From NCBI GenBank assembly GCA_017640685.1, contig JAEPQF010000028.1:1-34180 (forward strand): DNA of 34,180 nucleotides, written 5' to 3'. The DNA is from Hyphomicrobiales bacterium. GTDB lineage: Bacteria > Pseudomonadota > Alphaproteobacteria > Rhizobiales > HXMU1428-3. Of this stretch, positions 4,679-32,955 are shown one piece after another. Both the position numbers and the translations under genes were made by a program. The notes under the pieces were generated by a model. The model was not told where the DNA came from and made no database searches. It worked only from the letters and a program-made list of their open reading frames with translations. Positions within the stretch are counted from its first letter, which is position 1. The number at the start of each line of letters is the position of its first letter.

Positions 4679-5734
4679 ATGGCAAGTTTAGTTTTAGTTT
4701 TATACAAAGCTGCGTTAAACGTCCTCTATTATAGTGGGCTTTATAAGCTCCTGTCTCCAGCCACCCGCGGCGAAGGCATCATCTTCACGTTGCACCAAAT
4801 CAACAATGACCCAGTGGAAGATTTCTCACCAAACTCAATCCTGCGCGTCACACCAGAGTTTTTAGAAAGCACCATACAAACGGTAAAAGCAGAAGGCTAT
4901 GACATCATCTCACTAGATGAACTTCATGACCGCTTAAAAACGGGCAACAAATCCAATAAACCATATGCCGTCTTCACAGCTGATGACGGCTATAAAGACA
5001 ATCGTGACCTCGCGCTCCCGGTTTTGAAAAAACACAACGTGCCCTTGGCTATTTATATCGTCTCTGACTATAGCAATCATCAAGGCGAACTCTGGTGGTT
5101 TGCCTTGGAAGACATCATTAAAAACTCAAGCGCCATCCAAAATCCATATAACAAGGGCGAAGTGCTAGAGGCGGTGACAACCGAGCAAAAATTCAGAGCG
5201 TTTGATAAAATCTATTGGCCCATGCGCAGAAGCAACCAGCATGAGCAACGCGCAACCATTCGCGAAATGGCAAAAGCACATGACTACGACATCGACGCGC
5301 TGAGTAAAAATCTGGTCATGAACTGGGAAGAATTGCGAGAGCTAAATAAAGAACCGCTGATTACACTGGCCGCTCACACAAAGTCTCACTTCGCCATCGC
5401 AACTTTGAGCGAAGAAGAAGCGGATGAGCAAATTAAAATCGGCATGGACATCATGGAAAAAGAGCTGGGTGAAAAAGCCACTCATTTTTCCTTTCCCTAT
5501 GGCAGCAATTGCGCCGCGAACAAAAGAGACTTTGAGCTTGTAAAAAAATTCGGCTTCAAAACAGCGGTGACCACAAGAAAAGCCGTGCTTTATAAAGAGC
5601 ACAAAGACCACATGATGGCCCTGCCACGCGTATCCCTCAACGGCGAATACCAACACCAACGCTACATAAAAACCTTCCTCTCCGGCTTGCCTTTCAGACT
5701 GAAAAACAAATGGCAAAAACTAGATGTGGAGTAA
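4679..5734 (+). CDS. NodB-type polysaccharide deacetylase
   Basis: This 351-residue protein is in the carbohydrate esterase 4 (NodB homology) family, which removes N- or O-acetyl groups from polysaccharides with a bound metal. Motif 1 is TADDG at residues 100-104 (Asp103 is the likely catalytic base; the first position is A where T-F-DDG is usual). Motif 2, H-x3-H, is at His233 and His237 in AAHTKSHF, and FSFPYGS near 279 matches the next conserved loop. There is no signal peptide, so it may act on a cytoplasmic lipid-linked intermediate or be anchored by its hydrophobic N-terminus. The position at the end of the exopolysaccharide cluster suggests it modifies that polymer. The ATG at 4679 lacks a strong ribosome binding site. 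Confidence 0.8.
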   Translation: MASLVLVLYKAALNVLYYSGLYKLLSPATRGEGIIFTLHQINNDPVEDFSPNSILRVTPEFLESTIQTVKAEGYDIISLDELHDRLKTGNKSNKPYAVFTADDGYKDNRDLALPVLKKHNVPLAIYIVSDYSNHQGELWWFALEDIIKNSSAIQNPYNKGEVLEAVTTEQKFRAFDKIYWPMRRSNQHEQRATIREMAKAHDYDIDALSKNLVMNWEELRELNKEPLITLAAHTKSHFAIATLSEEEADEQIKIGMDIMEKELGEKATHFSFPYGSNCAANKRDFELVKKFGFKTAVTTRKAVLYKEHKDHMMALPRVSLNGEYQHQRYIKTFLSGLPFRLKNKWQKLDVE

Positions 5735-5736
5735 TT

Positions 5737-5853
5737 TTTCTCTCACGGCTATTCCTCGCTCCGCTCGGGCCTACGAGGTGCGGCGCAACGCGCCGGGCTG
5801 CGCTGGCGCTTCGCCATGTCCCTCAGCCTGAAGTAGGCTGAGCTCCTTCTTCG
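5737..5853 (-). repeat. Long structured repeat, copy A
   Basis: This is the only minus-strand copy of the long repeat family. Read on the minus strand it starts CGAAGAAGGAG. Hairpin 1 follows (CTCAGCCT-ACTTC-AGGCTGAG), then TGGCG-AAG-CGCCA (hairpin 2), CGGCGC-GTT-GCGCCG (hairpin 3), and a final stem holding GGAATAGCC before GTGAGAGA. Its 3' end lies two bases after the stop codon of the plus-strand deacetylase gene. It faces copy B across a palindromic element, so the gap 5737-6291 is one large imperfect inverted repeat. Confidence 0.75.
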
Positions 5854-5940
5854 TTTTGAGAGATAACGCCTGTGGGAATAAGTTGATGGTGAGTATTCTT
5901 CTTAACTAAAAACTCTGCTCTCCCACCCGCCTATCACACT

Positions 5941-6092: not shown

Positions 6093-6109
6093 GAGAGTAA
6101 GGTTAACTA

Positions 6110-6291
6110 CACGAAGGAGGAGTGACGCCACTTCGGTGTCAGGACATGGCAGCAGGGCTGCCCGGCGCGAGCGCCGCACAGTGCGGTTGCTTTGCGGATG
6201 CCTAGTGGGCATCTGAAGCACAAAAAATGGCAACCGAAGCACAACAAAAAAAGTAGGCCCGAGCGTAGCGAGGAATAGCCGTGAGAGAAAA
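6110..6291 (+). repeat. Long structured repeat, copy B, with nested hairpins
   Basis: This copy begins ACACGAAGGAGG and keeps hairpin 1 (GACGCC-ACTTC-GGTGTC, with one G-T pair). Hairpin 2 is damaged (GGCAGCAGGGCTGCC). Hairpin 3 is CGGCGC-GA-GCGCCG, and the end is GAGGAATAGCCGTGAGAG. Between hairpin 3 and the final stem, after CGCAC, a short-family hairpin is inserted at the same place as in copy D. That hairpin itself holds another hairpin (see 6183-6243). Confidence 0.75.
6183..6243 (+). repeat. Short hairpin repeat nested inside another
   Basis: The outer unit reads GTGC-GGTTGC-TTT ... GGCAACC-GAA-GCAC. Its apical loop has been split by a complete second unit, TGC-GGATGC-CTAGTGG-GCATCT-GAA-GCA plus an A-rich tail (about 6193-6228). 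Both stems of each unit pair properly. The arrangement shows the inner copy arrived after the outer one. Confidence 0.8.
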
Positions 6292-6478
6292 CAAACTACT
6301 CCTCTCCACTCGATAGATCTCCCCGTATTCCTCCACCACACCCTCACCCAGCCAACAAAATACAACACTCCCCCAAAATAACTCACCGCAATACTCTAAC
6401 CATTTGACATCAATGCAAACTTTACTTTGAGTGAAGAAGTAAAAACAAAAGAGCCAAAGAAAAACCTCGAGCAAAATC

Positions 6479-9396: not shown

Positions 9397-9751
9397 GTAA
9401 GAAAAGGCCTTTAAATTCAAAAATTGGACGAAATATAAGTTTATCCGCTCCTCTTATAATGAACAAGCCTGAAGAGCGCCATACCTATAATACGTTTAAC
9501 AGGCCATAAAAGATCAACCCACCACTCACCGCGCCATTATGTCCCATCATAAAAAATCAAGGATATAGCTATACGAGCGCAAAACACTGCGCTATAAACC
9601 CCATCTGTGAGGATTAAAATGTTTGTCCAAAGCCCAAAAAAGCCCAAGGCAAACTGATGTTTGGGAAAAGCTGTAATCGCCCCGATTGCTATGCGGAAGC
9701 TAGCCTAAATGCTTTCTGAGCATCAGCAAAGGCCGCACTAAGTAGTGAGCT
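9397..9751. other. Gene-free gap before ctaA
   Basis: This gap has no credible open frame. A hairpin at 9576-9593 (AGCGCA-AAACAC-TGCGCT) can alternatively pair through TATAGC (9564) and GCTATA (9591). No T-run follows, so it is not a clear terminator. From about 9690 the sequence resembles worn copies of the short hairpin repeat, leading into the intact copies at 9752-9840. I see no convincing promoter, although one must lie here for ctaA. Confidence 0.3.
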
Positions 9752-9840
9752 TAAGGGGCATCAACGCCCCGGTAGCTTGTAGGCAACCTGAAGGGGCATC
9801 AACGCCCCGGTTGCTTGTGGGCAACCTGAAGGGGCATCAA
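9752..9840 (+). repeat. Short hairpin repeats in tandem upstream of ctaA
   Basis: Two and a partial unit repeat with a period of 38 bp. Each unit has outer stem GCCCC/GGGGC and inner stem GGTTGC/GCAACC around the loop TTGTGG, with bulge TGAA. The first intact unit is 9766-9797 and carries GGTAGC, a one-base mismatch; the second is 9804-9835. The second unit ends with GGGGCATCAA just before the possible leader ORF of ctaA. The outer stem would pair the purine-rich AAGGGG stretch. Confidence 0.8.
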
Positions 9841-9842
9841 AA

Positions 9843-9857
9843 ATGGATTTACTATAG
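9843..9857 (+). CDS. Possible four-codon leader ORF of ctaA
   Basis: ATG-GAT-TTA-CTA-TAG (MDLL, stop) ends one base before the ctaA ATG at 9859. It follows the AAGGGG of the upstream hairpin repeat at 9829-9834 with a spacing of 8 bases, normal for translation initiation. The ctaA ATG itself has no ribosome binding site at the usual distance. This suggests translation of ctaA is coupled to the micro-ORF, but there is no direct proof it is translated. Confidence 0.3.
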   Translation: MDLL

Positions 9858-9858
9858 A

Positions 9859-10938
9859 ATGGTACTGTCAGTAACCAACGCTCCAACAGAAAAACAAATC
9901 AAAGCACGCCCAGCTATTCAAATTTGGCTATTTATGATCTGCGCTCTTATCTTTGCGATGGTCATCGTTGGCGGTGCCACACGCCTCACAGGTTCAGGTC
10001 TTTCAATTACTGAATGGAAACCAATTGTCGGCGCCATTCCTCCTTTGAATATTGAGGATTGGAATAAAGCGTTTGAGAAATACAAACAAATCCCACAATA
10101 TAAAGAAATCAACGAAGGCATGAGCCTTGATGAGTTCAAATCCATTTTCTGGTGGGAATGGGGACATCGCTTTTTAGGCCGCTTTATTGGTCTTGCGTTC
10201 TTTGTGCCGTTCTTATTTTTCTTGATCACAAAGCGTGTTGAAAGTTCTTTGAAGCCAAAATTCTGGCTGATGTTTTTAGGCGGCGGGCTGCAAGGCTTTG
10301 TCGGGTGGTACATGGTTGCAAGCGGTCTCACTGAGCGGGTTGATGTCAGCCAATATCGCCTCGCCGCTCACTTAGGGTTAGCCGTTCTGTTGTTCTCATA
10401 CATCTTCTGGGTCGCCATTGGCTTAAGGCGGGATGATAACAATGCGGTTTCTGGTGGGCAACTGAAGGCGCACTTAAAAAGCCCAGCCTATTTCATCACC
10501 GGTTTGATCTTCTTTCAAATTATCGCCGGCGCATTCGTAGCTGGCCTAAAAGCAGGCAAAGCTCACAACACCTGGCCTCTGATGGATGGCCGCTTCATTC
10601 CAAATGGCCTGGATGTTATGACACCGTTTTGGAAAAACCTCTTTGAAAATGTCCTCACCGTTCAATTCAACCACCGCATGATCGCTTACGTGATTGCCAT
10701 CGTTGTGCTGTTGCATTTCATCCAATGTTTGATTTCTAAAAGCGGACTTGCGAACAAAGGATTGGCCATCAAAGGAGCAGGACTGTTGCTTCTATTTACG
10801 TTGGCTCAAATCGCGCTGGGGATTGTAACGCTCTTGCAGTTCGTGCCACTAGACCTTGCCCTCTATCACCAAGGTGGCGCCGTTATCCTCCTAAGCGCCA
10901 GCCTCTGGCACAGTCGGAATTTATATGGCGGTTGCTAG
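9859..10938 (+). CDS. ctaA: Heme A synthase (COX15/CtaA)
   Basis: This 359-residue membrane protein oxidises the C8 methyl of heme O to the formyl of heme A, which is needed for aa3-type cytochrome oxidase. About eight membrane segments are visible, with the family signatures GGATRLTGSGLSITEWKP near the N-terminus. Conserved heme-ligand histidines lie in WEWGHRFLGR, RLAAHLGLA, NHRMIAY and YHQGGAV. The longer GTG-initiated frame (9745) merely translates the upstream repeats; the ATG at 9859 matches the family length. The final residues (YGGC) and the TAG stop are encoded by a short hairpin repeat that begins at 10926. The DUF2842 gene next to it is the usual alphaproteobacterial neighbour. Confidence 0.95.
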   Translation: MVLSVTNAPTEKQIKARPAIQIWLFMICALIFAMVIVGGATRLTGSGLSITEWKPIVGAIPPLNIEDWNKAFEKYKQIPQYKEINEGMSLDEFKSIFWWEWGHRFLGRFIGLAFFVPFLFFLITKRVESSLKPKFWLMFLGGGLQGFVGWYMVASGLTERVDVSQYRLAAHLGLAVLLFSYIFWVAIGLRRDDNNAVSGGQLKAHLKSPAYFITGLIFFQIIAGAFVAGLKAGKAHNTWPLMDGRFIPNGLDVMTPFWKNLFENVLTVQFNHRMIAYVIAIVVLLHFIQCLISKSGLANKGLAIKGAGLLLLFTLAQIALGIVTLLQFVPLDLALYHQGGAVILLSASLWHSRNLYGGC

Positions 10939-11092: not shown

Positions 11093-11108
11093 GTTTTTAA
11101 ATCTCACT

Positions 11109-11232
11109 AGACGAAGGAGGAGTAACGCCACTTCGGCGTTAGGACATGGCGAAGCGTCAGCGTAGCCCGGCGCTTAGCGCCGCACCTTGTTGGGCCCGCT
11201 GCTTCAGCAGCGGAATAGCCCGTGAGAGAAAA
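11109..11232 (+). repeat. Long structured repeat, copy C
   Basis: This copy is complete and has no internal insertion. Hairpin 1 is TAACGCC-ACTTC-GGCGTTA, hairpin 2 TGGCG-AAG-CGTCA, hairpin 3 CGGCGC-TTA-GCGCCG, and the final inner stem CCGCTGC-TTCA-GCAGCGG followed by AATA and the outer GGGC/GCCC pair. It ends GTGAGAGAAAA directly at the stop codon of the minus-strand dehydratase gene. Confidence 0.8.
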
Positions 11233-12207
11233 CTAAACTACAGGCGTGTTCCCTGAGAGCACATCTTTGTAAACGGAAACATCCACATTCGAGCCAGATA
11301 AAATAACACCAACATTCTTGCCAGCATATTTTTCTTGCTCGCGCATCAATCCAGCAAGTCCAGCTGCAGCGGCCGGTTCTGCAATATTATGAGTGTCAGA
11401 ATAAAAAACGCGCATAGCAGCAGCGATCTCATCCTCACTTAATTGAAGAACCCGAGAGGCACCATTATTGATAATGTCAAAGGCATGTTGGTCTGGCGCA
11501 CGGCAAGCAATACCATCAGCAAAGGTTGAAACCGTTTCTGTTCCAACAATCTCACCAGCATCAAATGACAGACCATAAGAAGGTGCATTCTTAGCAACCA
11601 CGCCGATGATTTCAGTATCAAGTCCGAGCAAATCCCGCACGGTTATAAGGCCGCAAATACCTGAGCCCATACCAATCGGAACATAAACAGCGGCAAGGGG
11701 AGGAGTAGATTGAAAAAGTTCATAAGCATAAGTCGCAACGCCTTTGACAATGTCAGAATGAAAGGGAGGGACCATATGAAAGCCGCGCTCATCACCAATC
11801 TCTGCAGCCACGCGCCGGCTGGCTTCAAAGTCAGCTCCTGAGATAATAACTTCACCTCCAAATGCTTCCATAGCAGCGTTCTTTTCAATAGAGTTGCCTT
11901 CAGGCACAACAATCACACTGGGAAGTCCATGTTTCGTTGCAGCTAATGCTACAGCTTGCCCATGGTTACCACGTGTAGCGGTGACCAAACCATTGAGAGA
12001 AATTCCAGATTGAGCAAGTTCATGAACAAACAGCGGAACACCTCGAGCTTTGAACGCGCCAATTGGTGTGTGGTTTTCATGCTTTACATAGACGCTTGCG
12101 CCTGTTCGTTTTGATAAAAGAGGCCAATGATGGGTCGGCGTTTTTGGCACAAGTGTTTCAACAAAGCGAATAGCTTGGTGTAAATCATCTAATGAAAATA
12201 AAGGCAT
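11233..12207 (-). CDS. Threonine/serine dehydratase-like PLP enzyme
   Basis: This 324-residue protein is a fold-type II PLP enzyme, most like catabolic threonine dehydratases, which deaminate threonine to 2-oxobutanoate or serine to pyruvate. Lys53 in PIGAFKARG is the Schiff-base lysine. The Asn-Gly-type loop ATRGNHGQAVA binds the substrate carboxylate, and GMGSG near 178 binds the cofactor phosphate. There is no C-terminal ACT regulatory domain, so isoleucine feedback as in biosynthetic IlvA is not expected. It is divergent from an AraC regulator 150 bp away, which may control it in response to an amino acid. A related activity on hydroxyaspartate or ectoine-derived substrates cannot be excluded. 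Confidence 0.8.
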   Translation of the reverse strand: MPLFSLDDLHQAIRFVETLVPKTPTHHWPLLSKRTGASVYVKHENHTPIGAFKARGVPLFVHELAQSGISLNGLVTATRGNHGQAVALAATKHGLPSVIVVPEGNSIEKNAAMEAFGGEVIISGADFEASRRVAAEIGDERGFHMVPPFHSDIVKGVATYAYELFQSTPPLAAVYVPIGMGSGICGLITVRDLLGLDTEIIGVVAKNAPSYGLSFDAGEIVGTETVSTFADGIACRAPDQHAFDIINNGASRVLQLSEDEIAAAMRVFYSDTHNIAEPAAAAGLAGLMREQEKYAGKNVGVILSGSNVDVSVYKDVLSGNTPVV

Positions 12208-13896: not shown

Positions 13897-13907
13897 TTAG
13901 TTAGGTT

Positions 13908-14066
13908 CTACACGATGAAGGAGCCTAGCCCACTTCGGGCTAGGAGACATGGCGAAGCGCCAGTGCAGCCCGGCGCGTTGCGCCGCACAATGCGGTTGCT
14001 AGTGGGCAACCTGAAGCACATCAAAGAAGTAGGCCCGCAGCGACAGCTGCGGAATAGCCCGTGAGT
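13908..14066 (+). repeat. Long structured repeat, copy D
   Basis: Hairpin 1 is CCTAGCCC-ACTTC-GGGCTAGG, hairpin 2 TGGCG-AAG-CGCCA, hairpin 3 CGGCGC-GTT-GCGCCG. The final inner stem is CCGCAGC-GACA-GCTGCGG, then AATA and GCCC. A short hairpin is inserted after CGCAC, as in copy B. The element ends GTGAG five bases from the stop codon of the minus-strand metY gene. Confidence 0.8.
13990..14028 (+). repeat. Short hairpin repeat inside long copy D
   Basis: TGC-GGTTGC-TAGTGG-GCAACC-TGAA-GCA with an A-rich tail (CATCAAAGAA) is embedded between hairpin 3 and the final stem of the long repeat. The flanks match copy B (CGCACAxTGC on the left, AAGTAGGCCC on the right), so the two long copies share one insertion event. 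Confidence 0.8.
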
Positions 14067-16770: not shown

Positions 16771-16804
16771 AAGGGCTTTGCAGATTGCAAGGCCCTTTTT
16801 TATT
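16771..16804 (+). terminator. Rho-independent terminator of rplM-rpsI
   Basis: AGGGC-TT-TGCA-GAT-TGCA-A-GGCCCT forms a long interrupted stem followed by TTTTTATT. It ends the ribosomal operon. Confidence 0.85.
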
Positions 16805-16823
16805 GTACATAAATACGATCTTT

Positions 16824-16952
16824 CGACATGAAGAAGGAGATCAGCCCACTTCGGGCTGAGGGACATGGCGAAGCGCCAGCGCAGCCCGATGCCTAGCATC
16901 GCACCTCGTGGGCTCAATTGCGATAGCACTTGAAATAGCCGTGAGAGAGAAC
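16824..16952 (+). repeat. Long structured repeat, copy E
   Basis: This copy is the most diverged in its stems yet keeps every hairpin. Hairpin 1 is TCAGCCC-ACTTC-GGGCTGA, hairpin 2 TGGCG-AAG-CGCCA, hairpin 3 CGATGC-CTA-GCATCG. The final stem is TCAA-T-TGC-GATA-GCA-C-TTGA, then AATA and GCC. It lies between the ribosomal terminator and argC, with its 3' end toward argC. Confidence 0.8.
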
Positions 16953-17035
16953 CAACTTCCTTTTTTTATTGTCCAAATCACTTGTTCATTATAAAGAAAC
17001 AAGAAAATTTATTTGCTTTTCAAAAGAGAAAAATC

Positions 17036-22567: not shown

Positions 22568-23533
22568 ATGTCAGAACCATTAAACCAAGGCCTAGTTTGG
22601 GATGTATTGCGTGTAACGGAAGTTGCAGCAATTGAGGCTGCTAAATTGCGTGGGCGCGGCGATGAAATGGCCGCAGATAAAGCCGCTGTAGACGCAATGC
22701 GAAGTGAATTAAATGGTCTAGATATTGATGGCCGTGTTGTCATCGGTGAAGGTGAGCGTGATGAAGCGCCAATGCTTTTCATCGGTGAAGAAATCGGCAC
22801 CAAAAACGGCCCAAAAGTAGACATCGCTGTTGATCCACTGGAAGGAACAACACTTTGCGCAAAGTCAATGCCAAATTCTTTAGCTGTGCTCGCCATGGCA
22901 GAAGGCGGCAGCTTGCTCCACGCACCAGATATCTACATGGAAAAAATTGCTATTGGCCCTGGTTTTGAGCCAGATTTGGTCAGCCTTGAGCAATCACCAA
23001 CAGAGAATTTAAAAGCCCTAGCTGATGCCAAAAAAGTTTCTGTGAACGATCTAACAGTCTGTATCCTGGACAGATCTCGTCACAGCAAACTCATTGAAGA
23101 AGTAAGAGAAGCTGGTGCTGCCGTGAAACTAATCGGTGATGGTGATATTGCCGGTGTTATTCAAACAACAGACCCAAATGAAACTGGTATTGATATGTAT
23201 ATGGGGGTTGGCGGTGCGCCTGAAGGGGTGCTTGCAGCCTCAGCTCTACGCTCAATTGGTGGCCAAATGCAAGGCCGCCTAGCACCATTGCATGAAAGTC
23301 ACTATGAACGCGCCGCAAAAGTAGGCATTGAAGATTTGTCAAAAATCTACAGCATTGATGACATGGTCAAAGGTGATGTGATTTTCGCAGCAACCGGTGT
23401 CACAACGGGCCAAATGCTTGATGGTGTTCGCCGCGATGGAGATATGATCGAGACAGAAACATTGATCATGCATGTCGGCAGTTCTTCAGTGCGCTGGGTA
23501 AAAACCCAAAGGCAAGTAAACAGCGAGGCGTAA
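22568..23533 (+). CDS. glpX: Class II fructose-1,6-bisphosphatase
   Basis: This 321-residue enzyme hydrolyses fructose 1,6-bisphosphate in gluconeogenesis and needs a divalent metal. The class II signatures are RVVIGEGERDEAPMLFIGEE, then DIAVDPLEGTTLCAKSMPNS, with CILDRSRHSKLIEEVREAGA and GVGGAPEGVLAASALRSIGG further on. The length is normal. It lies between hom and recJ, the common Rhizobiales order, and ends with its own terminator. The same fold covers sedoheptulose bisphosphatase activity, so a Calvin-type role cannot be excluded, but no such genes are near. Confidence 0.95.
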   Translation: MSEPLNQGLVWDVLRVTEVAAIEAAKLRGRGDEMAADKAAVDAMRSELNGLDIDGRVVIGEGERDEAPMLFIGEEIGTKNGPKVDIAVDPLEGTTLCAKSMPNSLAVLAMAEGGSLLHAPDIYMEKIAIGPGFEPDLVSLEQSPTENLKALADAKKVSVNDLTVCILDRSRHSKLIEEVREAGAAVKLIGDGDIAGVIQTTDPNETGIDMYMGVGGAPEGVLAASALRSIGGQMQGRLAPLHESHYERAAKVGIEDLSKIYSIDDMVKGDVIFAATGVTTGQMLDGVRRDGDMIETETLIMHVGSSSVRWVKTQRQVNSEA

Positions 23534-23578
23534 AGCCTCACTGTTTTATCAAGCGTTATTGTCTATAAGATTTGTTTA

Positions 23579-23617
23579 AAAGAGCACTTCAGGGTAACCA
23601 GAAGTGCTCTTTTTATT
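23579..23617 (+). terminator. Rho-independent terminator of glpX
   Basis: AAGAGCACTTC and GAAGTGCTCTT form an 11-bp stem with an 11-nt loop, followed by TTTATTT. It separates glpX from the recJ promoter region. Confidence 0.9.
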
Positions 23618-23764
23618 TCAAAAGCGGGTATTCCTTATCATAGAGTTATAAACACTCTATTTTTCTCAACTATTGCTCTCTTAATCGAATGAGCTATGCT
23701 CGTTTACAAGGCGTAATTATTCTAAACTCAAGACTATAATGAGGATTATAACTAGAGGGTTTGC

Positions 23765-24064
23765 TGCACGAAGAAGGAGCTCAGTCCTTATCCCCGTTTG
23801 CTTGGTTGGAAACTGAAGTGAAGAAAATGCAACTGAAGGCAAGGCTAACGCGGCGGTTTCTGGTGGGAAACTAAATCCGCATTATGCGACTGTTGCTTTT
23901 ACGGATGCTTGGTAGGCATCCGAAGTAAAGAAAATACAGCTTGAAGGAGCATTATGCGACTGTTGCTTTTACGAGTACTTGGTGAGCATCTGAAGTAAAG
24001 AAAATGCAACCTGAAGGAGCATCACGCGACGGTTGCTTGTGGGCAACCTGAAGGAGCATCAAAA
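23765..24064 (+). repeat. Hairpin repeat array ending in the recJ ribosome site
   Basis: A fragment of the long repeat (GCACGAAGAAGGAG, 23765-23788) opens the array. Short units follow: a worn one (about 23794-23816), one with GGTTTC/GAAACT (23850-23885), and three tandem units sharing GCGAC-x-GTTGC on the left and GAAGGAGCAT on the right. The first two (about 23886-23952 and 23955-24020) contain another unit in their loop, TTTTAC-GGATGC-TTGGTAG-GCATCC-GAA-GTAAAG, or a mutated form of it. The third (24025-24060) has a plain TTGTGG loop, and its GAAGGAG is the recJ ribosome binding site. Positions 23618-23764 hold nothing I can name. Confidence 0.8.
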
Positions 24065-25897
24065 ATGACAAAAGCATTAGCTGAAAATTTAGAAGAGACC
24101 GGCTTTCTTGGTATCAGCAAATCTGCCAAAGGTCTTATATGGCGCCAGCGCTTGGATGAGCAGGGCCGCAACCAAGGATTAGCTCTTTCTCAGATTGCCG
24201 GCATTCCCGAAATTCTAGGCCGTGTTTTAGCGGCAAGAGGCGCAACTATAGATACAGTTGAAAATTGGTTGAACCCTTCTTTGAAAGAATTCATGCCAGA
24301 CCCACATGTGATGCAGCATATGGAATTAGGCGCTAAACGCTTGGCTGAAGCCATAAAGAAAAAGCAAAAAATAGCAATCTTTGGTGACTATGATGTCGAT
24401 GGCGCGGTTTCTAGCGCTTTGATGAAATTGTTCTTAAATGCTCACAAGATTTCAGACACCCAAATTTATATTCCTGATCGTATCTTTGAAGGATACGGCC
24501 CAAACCCTGATGCCATAAACAGTCTCGTTGATAATGGCGCTGAATTAATTGTCACTGTTGATTGCGGTACAGTGAGCCACGATGCCTTAGGTGAAGCAAC
24601 CAAAAGGAACATCGATGTTATCGTGGTAGACCATCACCTGGCAGGTGAAACCTTGCCGGACGTTACCGCCGTGATCAATCCAAACCGGCAAGATGATTTA
24701 TCTGACCTTGGTCATCTTTGTGCAGGCGGTGTTGTTTTCATGCTGCTGGTCGCAGCAAAAAGAGTTCTATCTCAAGAAGGGTACTATAAAGACGAAGGAG
24801 TAACACCTCCTGATTTAATGGCCTATCTTGACCTAGTCGCCCTTTCAACCATTTGCGATGTTGTGCCTTTAAAAGGCTTAAACAGGGCCTTTGTAGCCAA
24901 GGGACTGCAAGTCATGCATAAGCGCCACAATGTTGGCTTAAGAGCTTTGGGAGATGCCGCAGGCCTGACCACAGCGCCAACACCATATCACCTAGGTTTC
25001 TTACTCGGCCCACGCATTAACGCAGGTGGGCGCATAGGCTCATCAGAGCTCGGTGCTAAGCTTTTGTCAGAGCAAGATGACATTGAAGCAGACCGCATCG
25101 CAGCCTTGCTGAATAAGTTAAATGATGAACGCAAGGAAATGGAAAAACTCACTTTAGAGGAAGCAACAACCAGAGTAAGCGATCTCATTGATGAGAACCC
25201 AGAGATGTCGATTATTTTCGCAGGCTCAAAAGATTGGCACAAAGGCTTGGTTGGCCTCGTTGCAAGCCGGTTAACTGATAAATTCCGCCGCCCCTCTTGT
25301 GTGCTAAGTATTGATGAAAAGTCCAAAACGGCAACTGGTTCTCTGCGTTCAATTTCAAGCGTTGATATTGGCCGTGTTGTTCAAAAGGCAAGAGATGAAG
25401 GCATGATCTTAAAAGGAGGGGGCCATGCTATGGCAGCTGGCCTTACTTTAGAAATAGATCGATTGGCTGAAGTTGAGGCTTATTTTGCAAAAGAGCTTAG
25501 CAAAGCCGTAACAACGGAACGCGCTAGAATGGGGTTAGACATAGACGGGGCACTAACAGCCAACGGTATTTCACCTAATTTTATGGATCAGCTCGAGCGA
25601 GCAGGCCCATTTGGCGCAGAGAACCCACCACCACGCTTTGTGTTGCCATCACATAGGGTGAAATTCTCTAAAATTGTTGGCGACAATCATGTCAAATGCA
25701 CTTTGGAAGCCAGTGATCAATCTCGTATAAACGCCATTGCCTTTCGTGCGGCAAACACTGATTTAGGGGAGTTGTTGCTTGACCGAACAGGCGAACCATT
25801 GCATATAGTGGGGCAATTACGACGCAATAGTTGGAATGGCCGCGAAACCATTGAGCTAACAATTGAAGATGCCGCAAAACCGGTAAAGTCGTTTTAA
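24065..25897 (+). CDS. recJ: Single-strand-specific exonuclease RecJ
   Basis: This 610-residue protein is the 5'-3' single-strand DNA exonuclease of recombinational and mismatch repair. The DHH-superfamily motifs are present: GDYDVDG (Asp108-Gly113 region), DCGT, DHH at 189-191, and the DHHA1 motif GGGHAMAAG near residue 457. The C-terminal OB-type domain (LERAGPFGAENPPPRFVLPS and after) is complete. Length is normal for alphaproteobacteria (about 600). The ATG at 24065 is set by AAGGAG at 24051-24056, eight bases upstream. That ribosome binding site belongs to a dispersed hairpin repeat whose outer stem is broken in this copy. Confidence 0.95.
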   Translation: MTKALAENLEETGFLGISKSAKGLIWRQRLDEQGRNQGLALSQIAGIPEILGRVLAARGATIDTVENWLNPSLKEFMPDPHVMQHMELGAKRLAEAIKKKQKIAIFGDYDVDGAVSSALMKLFLNAHKISDTQIYIPDRIFEGYGPNPDAINSLVDNGAELIVTVDCGTVSHDALGEATKRNIDVIVVDHHLAGETLPDVTAVINPNRQDDLSDLGHLCAGGVVFMLLVAAKRVLSQEGYYKDEGVTPPDLMAYLDLVALSTICDVVPLKGLNRAFVAKGLQVMHKRHNVGLRALGDAAGLTTAPTPYHLGFLLGPRINAGGRIGSSELGAKLLSEQDDIEADRIAALLNKLNDERKEMEKLTLEEATTRVSDLIDENPEMSIIFAGSKDWHKGLVGLVASRLTDKFRRPSCVLSIDEKSKTATGSLRSISSVDIGRVVQKARDEGMILKGGGHAMAAGLTLEIDRLAEVEAYFAKELSKAVTTERARMGLDIDGALTANGISPNFMDQLERAGPFGAENPPPRFVLPSHRVKFSKIVGDNHVKCTLEASDQSRINAIAFRAANTDLGELLLDRTGEPLHIVGQLRRNSWNGRETIELTIEDAAKPVKSF

Positions 25898-32596: not shown

Positions 32597-32876
32597 GCGC
32601 GGATGCTGTGACGGTTGCAGGTAGGCAATCTGAAGGAACACTAAAAAGTGGGTATCTAAAGCGCAACTTAAAACGCGGATTCTGTGATGGTTGCTCAGCG
32701 GCGTTTTCTGGTGGGAAACTGAAGCTGCATTAAAGAGGCAACCTGAAGGGCAACTAAATAGCCCGGTTGCTTGTGGGCAACCTGAAGGGCAACTAAATAG
32801 CCCGGTTGCTTGTGGGCAACCTGAAGGGCAACTAACAAGCGTGGATGCTTTGTGGGCATCTAAAGCGCAATCAAAG
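32597..32876 (+). repeat. Short hairpin repeat array before tRNA-Arg
   Basis: The array starts with a nested pair: the outer unit GCGC-GGATGC ... GTATCT-AAA-GCGC (32597-32671) holds another unit with GGTTGC/GCAATC (about 32607-32648). A diverged duplicate of its left half follows (about 32674-32694). Its GGTTGC/GGCAACC unit (32689-32760) is in turn split by GCGGC-GTTTTC-TGGTGG-GAAACT-GAA-GCTGC (32698-32728). Then come two near-identical units with a 39-bp period (32761-32799 and 32800-32838; GCCC/GGGC) and one with GCGT/GCGC and GGATGC/GCATCT (32839-32876). The last ends two bases before the tRNA. Confidence 0.85.
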
Positions 32877-32878
32877 AC

Positions 32879-32955
32879 GGTCCCATAGCTCAGCTGGATA
32901 GAGCAACTGCCTTCTAAGCAGTAGGTCCGAGGTTCGAATCCTCGTGGGATCGCCA
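32879..32955 (+). tRNA. tRNA-Arg (anticodon TCT)
   Basis: This 77-nt cloverleaf has acceptor stem GGTCCCA/TGGGATC with one G-T, D arm AGCTCAGCTGGATAGAGC, anticodon stem ACTGC/GCAGT with loop CTTCTAA (TCT), T arm CGAGGTTCGAATCCTCG, discriminator G and encoded CCA. A hairpin repeat abuts its 5' end, so its promoter must lie within or before the repeats. Confidence 0.97.

Follow-up and report, generated by a model that had tools for sequence, protein, structure and literature searches.

A mobile hairpin subfamily probably supplies the Shine-Dalgarno sequence of recJ and of several other genes in one bacterial genus

Insertion sequences, MITEs and RU elements can alter the expression of the next gene, and a mobile sequence is thereby co-opted as an expression signal. 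The best-known cases deliver promoters or terminators, whereas in the genus described here one small-hairpin subfamily appears to deliver a Shine-Dalgarno sequence (SD), and to do so at several unrelated genes. Short hairpins that occur in many copies, both singly and in tandem, and that are suspected of moving as single strands are also typical of REP/REPIN elements (RAYT), as described in PMC3116915 and PMC6006769. Like the REP elements, the present hairpins are dispersed and mostly extragenic, with 132 of 164 arrays in our sample being intergenic. Unlike in the REP/RAYT system, no Y1 transposase was found in seven of eight genomes. On the hairpin strand, GTGG lies in the loop and the stem foot is variable. 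The letters of the outer stem also vary among copies, with pairing mostly retained. REPs of E. coli are found on both strands throughout the genome according to PMC12306157, in contrast to the 288 of 295 copies here that lie on the majority strand of their own contig. The strand preference has partial precedent in P. fluorescens, where tandem REP arrays are reported to take the forward orientation on one chromosome side and the reverse orientation on the other (PMC3116915). PMC6006769 further describes IS200/IS605 elements as targeting the lagging-strand template, and REP-like structures that do without GT[AG]G. The TAACTGA heptamers of marine Beggiatoaceae (PMC4679880) are simple direct repeats of 7 nt that bear little resemblance to an SD, unlike the SD-bearing and apparently mobile hairpin of this genus. 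In a limited literature check, none of the matches listed described the hairpin family, and a search on SD exaptation from bacterial transposable elements gave no papers.

The hairpin family and the recJ leader

The window, 34,180 nucleotides in length, is contig C151 of genome G000, and seven further genomes of the same genus served for comparison. Members of the hairpin family are about 36 nt long and combine the outer stem with an inner stem of the GGTTGC/GCAACC, GGATGC/GCATC or GGTTTC/GAAAC type, a short loop that usually contains GTGG, a 4-nt 3' TGAA bulge and an A-rich tail. Across 15 copies (14 distinct) the covariation score was 0.279, against 0.079 in shuffles, and both-side-changed cells numbered 19 against 7.4, scores that may be inflated by kinship among the copies. 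Other covariation measures were not clearly above shuffles: as many as 4 both-side-change pairs came up in 38 of 500 shuffles, and for further pair types the observed value was reached in 202 of the 500.

A regular-expression scan returned 295 copies from a 1.07-Mb sample, made up of the window, 400 kb of contig G002:C1 and stretches of G000 and G004 picked around strong hits, and none from a 254-kb shuffled control. Besides the intergenic arrays, 15 lay inside predicted ORFs and 17 were dropped for want of flanking ORFs on both sides. One copy in the window (10446-10467) sits within ORF 9745-10938, the frame of which is apparently unbroken and the product of which resembles heme A synthase. 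An array at 32608-32873 stops a few bases short of the tRNA gene at 32879-32952. Searches with model R1 gave at least 162 matches at E≤0.01 in G000 (150 of 2285 candidates scored). At E≤0.5 there were at least 176 in G004, 172 each in G003 and G002, 167 in G000 and 137 in G007, these larger counts being lower bounds because only 150 candidates were scored per genome, together with 43 in G006, 32 in G005 and 4 in G001. An order-wide draw of 150 genomes contained five with R1 matches at E≤1e-5, all of the same genus, and within the sensitivity of this search the family appears to be confined to the genus. A known RNA family (riboswitch, thermometer or ribozyme) was considered and discarded. An Rfam scan of the window at gathering thresholds returned three tRNAs and nothing else, and neither the recJ leader (23700-24110) nor a single copy of a larger repeat (16790-16990) had a match at E≤1.

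An intact hairpin precedes the recJ start (Table 1). The initial annotation had placed a hairpin right half and tail before the recJ ATG, with AAGGAG at a spacing of eight, and both points stand. The 32-nt hairpin and its tail can be read directly at 24026-24064, the 3' side running GCAACC-TGAA-GGAGC into ATCAAAA and then the ATG. Its outer arms form G-C and C-G pairs, two G.A mismatches and a final C-G pair. Since the GGAG-to-ATG distance peaks at 7-8 nt among the 237 less ambiguous starts of the sample, the spacing at recJ is a usual one here. The start itself is sound, because ATG 24065 is the earliest start codon in the recJ frame and the N-terminus is common to G002, G003 and G004; it is the only plausible recJ start. 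The earlier description of recJ as an essential-type gene sits less well with RecJ being, to our knowledge, non-essential in model bacteria. Allowing up to three mismatches, GCAACCTGAAGGAGC occurs 13 times in the window, compared with 0.9 occurrences on average in shuffled sequence.

Table 1. Features of the recJ region, of the larger repeat and of hairpin-bearing loci elsewhere
Feature	Position or locus	Strand	Basis
Conserved block upstream of all repeats	23644..23701	+	four-genome alignment
GAAGAAGGAG, 5' end of large composite repeat	23770..23779	+	invariant in four-genome alignment
Small hairpin, GGTTTC/GAAAC type	23850..23884	+	
Tandem duplicate of nested unit 23949..24020, 87% identical	23879..23948	+	family D9
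Further GCGAC/GGAGC copy with another hairpin (~23966-24004) nested in its loop	23949..24020	+	sequence; family D9
Right half GCAACCTGAAGGAGC of that nested copy	24006-24020	+	read directly
Intact small hairpin, GCGAC/GGAGC class	24026..24057	+	read from sequence; model R1 match, 55.2 bits
Outer 5' arm GCGAC	24026-24030	+	read directly
Inner 5' stem GGTTGC	24031-24036	+	read directly
Loop TTGTGG	24037-24042	+	read directly
Inner 3' stem GCAACC	24043-24048	+	read directly
3' TGAA bulge	24049-24052	+	read directly
AAGGAG, putative SD in bulge and 3' outer arm	24051..24056	+	sequence, spacing statistics, orthologue table
Outer 3' arm GGAGC	24053-24057	+	read directly
8-nt spacer CATCAAAA (final hairpin base and tail), abutting start codon	24057..24064	+	read directly
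Tail ATCAAAA	24058-24064	+	read directly
recJ, 610 aa	24065..25897	+	TIGR00644, 523 bits vs cut-off 397
Larger composite repeat	6106-6297, 11103-11236, 13906-14065, 16822-16957	+	
Larger composite repeat	5722-5864	-	
Putative hairpin-supplied SDs at ycjX, moaD, moaE, DUF4336 gene, dnaQ	L074/L107, L084, L103, L106		
Filled and empty nested sites	L125, L126, L127 (ycjX); L133 (dnaQ)		

The recJ leader differs between species in its repeats. In G000, G002, G003 and G004 it contains the conserved block, which is probably the recJ promoter region, followed by GAAGAAGGAG; no sigma-70 consensus promoter was detected in 23500-24080. In G002, G003 and G004 the rest of the leader, as far as the recJ start, is taken up by a larger composite repeat, GAAGAAGGAG ... 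GGACATGGCGAAGCGCCAGCGCAGCCC ... AATAGCCCGTGAGAG, which measures about 130-190 nt; in G000 an array of small hairpins stands in its place. Small hairpins are often inserted at one internal site of this larger repeat, and its exact core is present in at least two MAGs of a species collection. AAGGAG stands at this position in none of the six same-genus recJ genes (G001 yielded no recJ match). In five of the six no GGAG occurs within 24 nt of the start; the sixth, from the distant G006, carries GAGGAG. In G000 the hairpin-borne GGAG is the only one within 24 nt of the start. Taken together, the six recJ genes without AAGGAG and the larger repeat in the three closest relatives suggest that the hairpin probably brought AAGGAG with it, the small hairpin having presumably replaced the end of an older, larger repeat. 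The comparison of relatives thus shows no conservation of AAGGAG apart from the hairpin, and agrees with the earlier proposal, made from sequence, that a mobile element was adopted as the recJ translation signal.

Recurrence at other gene starts

Copies of the GCGAC/GGAGC class or close variants were also found at the starts of ycjX, dnaQ, moaD, moaE and a DUF4336 gene, identified by the Pfam families YcjX, exonuclease (DnaQ-like), ThiS/MoaD, MoaE and DUF4336. The pattern GCAACCTGAAGGAGCN{3,9}ATG had 17 matches in four of the eight genomes, and the reversed pattern had none. Longer ORFs are opened by 11 of the 17. They comprise recJ (one match), ycjX (three), the DUF4336 gene (two), two genes resembling short-chain dehydrogenases by eye, an ORF of at least 501 aa that is truncated where the locus ends, another of 248 aa and a doubtful one of 49 codons. 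The other six run into ORFs of 8-12 codons, five of them within arrays. The dnaQ, moaD and moaE starts are further cases with slightly different letters.

This association was also seen in the sample counts. For 29 of the 295 copies, the 40 nt on the 3' side hold an ATG that opens an ORF of at least 80 codons, compared with 6 of 295 on the opposite strand. Arrays ending 5-14 nt before an ORF start, a test that relies on mechanically called ORFs, made up 5 of 21 arrays with a GGA arm and 1 of 143 others (p=1.2e-4). Leaving out one locus that had been known beforehand gave 4 of 20 (p=8e-4), and leaving out the window as well gave 3 of 19 versus 1 of 142 (p=0.005). At the level of single copies, right halves stood at starts for 6 of 47 GGA arms and 3 of 216 others (p=0.0013). 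These figures replace a looser right-half expression (9/54 vs 16/413, p=9e-4), which was abandoned because coding sequence was mixed in.

Orthologous sites point to mobility of the family. Upstream of ycjX the GCGAC hairpin is uninterrupted in G000, carries another hairpin in its loop in G002 and G004, and carries a different one in G003. Upstream of dnaQ it is uninterrupted in G002 and G004 and holds an insert in its loop in G003. GGAG is nevertheless retained at ycjX in all four genomes, despite nested insertions in three, and at dnaQ in G003 although the hairpin body is interrupted. The window has hairpins nested in hairpins at 6192-6227 as well, and the recJ leader contains them at 23879-24020.

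Chance could in principle account for such starts: a genome with hundreds of purine-tailed copies will place a few before start codons, where they look like SDs and go unused. The number of copies favors this reading, as does the loose SD (GGAG, GAGG or AGGA in range) present at 81 of 237 clear starts anyway. The enrichment of GGA-arm arrays at ORF starts and the retention of hairpin-supplied GGAG at orthologous starts, in four species for ycjX and three for dnaQ, argue against it, and we regard coincidence as unlikely. On the other side, 16 of the 21 arrays with a GGA arm end elsewhere than 5-14 nt ahead of an ORF start, which weighs against the reading of SD supply. Many genes here also lack a strong SD by the same loose count, so recJ might be translated without the hairpin-borne one, as the recJ genes of its relatives apparently are. 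We nevertheless consider it highly probable, judging from the sequences, that a mobile hairpin subfamily supplies the recJ SD and that this is one of several such events. Ribosomes would then use the SD that the hairpin supplies, and copies at gene starts may have survived because of the SD they carry.

The outer stem, its folding and the source of the SD

The initial annotation had described the outer stem as broken in this copy. The mismatch of GCGAC with GGAGC is real, but it is a trait of the subfamily and not a defect of one copy. Outer stems could be classified in 283 of 295 copies (12 were dropped), with 65 fully paired and 92 having four inner pairs. The tandem G.A pattern was present in 28 of the 283, 22 of them exactly GCGAC/GGAGC. 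None of the 30 GGAGC arms faces GCTCC, which makes the mismatch seen at recJ a class-wide feature; 22 of the 30 have GCGAC as their partner.

Folding with ViennaRNA separated the classes. The mean predicted probability of the outer 3' arm being unpaired was 0.04 in isolation and 0.15 in context for intact 5-bp stems (n=65), compared with 0.53 and 0.47 for the G.A class (n=24). For recJ itself the predictions are mixed. Mean predicted openness over AAGGAG was 0.53-0.55 in three contexts and, when the 5' arm was replaced by A's, fell to 0.35 and 0.47 from 0.53 and 0.55. A fully complementary arm is predicted to close GGAG in a short context. In a longer one, neighboring copies re-pair and GGAG reopens, with a mean of 0.67. 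The earlier view that a broken stem frees the SD and an intact stem hides it thus holds as a difference between classes; at recJ the SD is predicted to be only about half open, and replacement of the 5' arm by A's opens it no further.

A translational switch, in which the outer stem opens and closes over AAGGAG in a thermometer-like or protein-bound manner and so controls recJ, would draw on this predicted fold, which places the SD in an outer arm that intact-stem copies keep closed and that G.A-class copies leave about half open. It would also draw on the covariation of the outer stem across copies. That covariation was measured mostly on copies away from gene starts, and so belongs to the element and not to recJ. 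Conserved pairing over the SD was not found at the orthologous starts. Nested insertions part the two arms at ycjX in G002, G003 and G004 and at dnaQ in G003 while GGAG stays, and the predicted openness of GGAG spans 0.14 to 0.80 across 15 starts with a hairpin-supplied SD. These disruptions, together with the spread in openness, argue against a conserved switch, as does the re-pairing of neighboring copies in the longer context. We consider a switch at recJ very unlikely, and the possible control by hairpin folding raised earlier is unsupported. The tandem G.A mismatch probably keeps the SD partly open, with no need for regulated folding.

Orthologous starts were tabulated in 38 gene-by-genome rows for recJ, ycjX, dnaQ, moaE and moaD, genes picked because one genome has a hairpin at the start, with rows from related genomes that are not independent. 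A hairpin right half stands at the start in 12 rows, 11 of them with GGAG at 7-12 nt and one with GGAA. The spacing is 12 at moaD in G002 and G004 and at ycjX in G003. Among the 25 rows without a hairpin at the start, GGAG lies at 5-12 nt in three (dnaQ in G007, moaE in G004 and recJ in G006); moaE in G003, which also belongs to the 25, carries a hairpin farther upstream, with GGAG at a distance of 20 nt. In the remaining row, moaE in G002 (L142) has the hairpin tail AAGGAGCATTAAAA before ATC where its orthologues have ATG, leaving no usable start; the ATC may be a rare start, a mutation or an assembly error. The table fits SDs that arrived with the hairpin. A very unlikely reading is that the SDs were there beforehand, with hairpins inserting beside them or taking target letters as their 3' arm: outer arms that vary widely yet remain mostly complementary could be acquired locally, and moaE in G004 carries AAAGGAGC without a stem, but GGAG is in range in so few rows lacking a hairpin at the start, most GGA-arm arrays of the sample (16 of 21) stop elsewhere than 5-14 nt ahead of an ORF start, and GCGAC so regularly accompanies GGAGC.

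Arrival with the hairpin would proceed as follows. A lineage-specific mobile DNA hairpin of about 36 nt with an A-rich tail would have spread through the genomes of the genus. One subfamily has GGAGC as its 3' outer arm after TGAA, a copy reading TGAAGGAGC(ACTAAA), and any copy ending a few bases before a start codon would hand that gene an SD at the usual spacing.

Strand preference and spread

The strand count covers 27 contigs, one of them with a single copy, from sample loci L047-L106 and the window. AT skew is positive (A>T) on the hairpin strand in all 27, whereas GC skew relative to that strand is mixed (9 of 27, p=0.12). The 132 intergenic arrays lie between genes that are both on the opposite strand (37), both on the same strand (55), convergent (33) or divergent (7), so gene direction does not explain the hairpin strand. 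The core of the larger composite repeat shares the strand of the small hairpins in 31 of 32 sample copies. Among the matches listed, the preference is weaker in G002:C1 (30 plus, 7 minus), and both strands occur in G004:C1 and G004:C2. The ribosomal L2 gene is opposite to most hairpins listed in G002:C1 and G004:C3, and the hairpin strand is therefore probably the one read against the fork. Counter to this, the copies at 496760 and 496841 of G002:C1, the nearest to L2 among the matches listed, are on the L2 strand.

No Y1 transposase or reverse transcriptase common to the hairpin-rich genomes was found. Y1 (PF01797) had no match in seven of the eight genomes, G000 (96.7% complete) included, G004 having two. 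The family was not classed with RAYT-driven REPs on this ground and because no GT[AG]G foot was seen on the hairpin strand. Across 31 aligned copies read on that strand, the stem foot (columns 1-4) is variable and GTGG falls in the loop. Mobilization by a reverse transcriptase, hinted at by the A-rich tail and the strand bias, was likewise set aside, as four hairpin-rich genomes, G002, G003 (78% complete), G004 and G007, had no RVT_1 gene; matches were confined to G000 and G005.

A mobile repeat serving as an expression signal is of a known kind. What is new is the repeated delivery of an SD by one hairpin subfamily, and a near strand-locked spread with no Y1 transposase or reverse transcriptase shared by the hairpin-rich genomes. 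A bolder and less probable extension is a portable translation-start module. The family might be inserted enzymatically, in a single preferred orientation, into single-stranded DNA during replication, and the G.A subfamily might be selectively kept or spread for its strong start signal, rewiring the translation of several genes in one genus. The near strand-locked spread without a shared known mobilizer hints at an unrecognized movement of hairpins at replication forks. In this genus, instances in which a mobile repeat would supply ribosome binding sites can be counted and compared across the filled and empty sites of sister species. They make it possible to study how new translation signals originate and whether they are maintained by selection.
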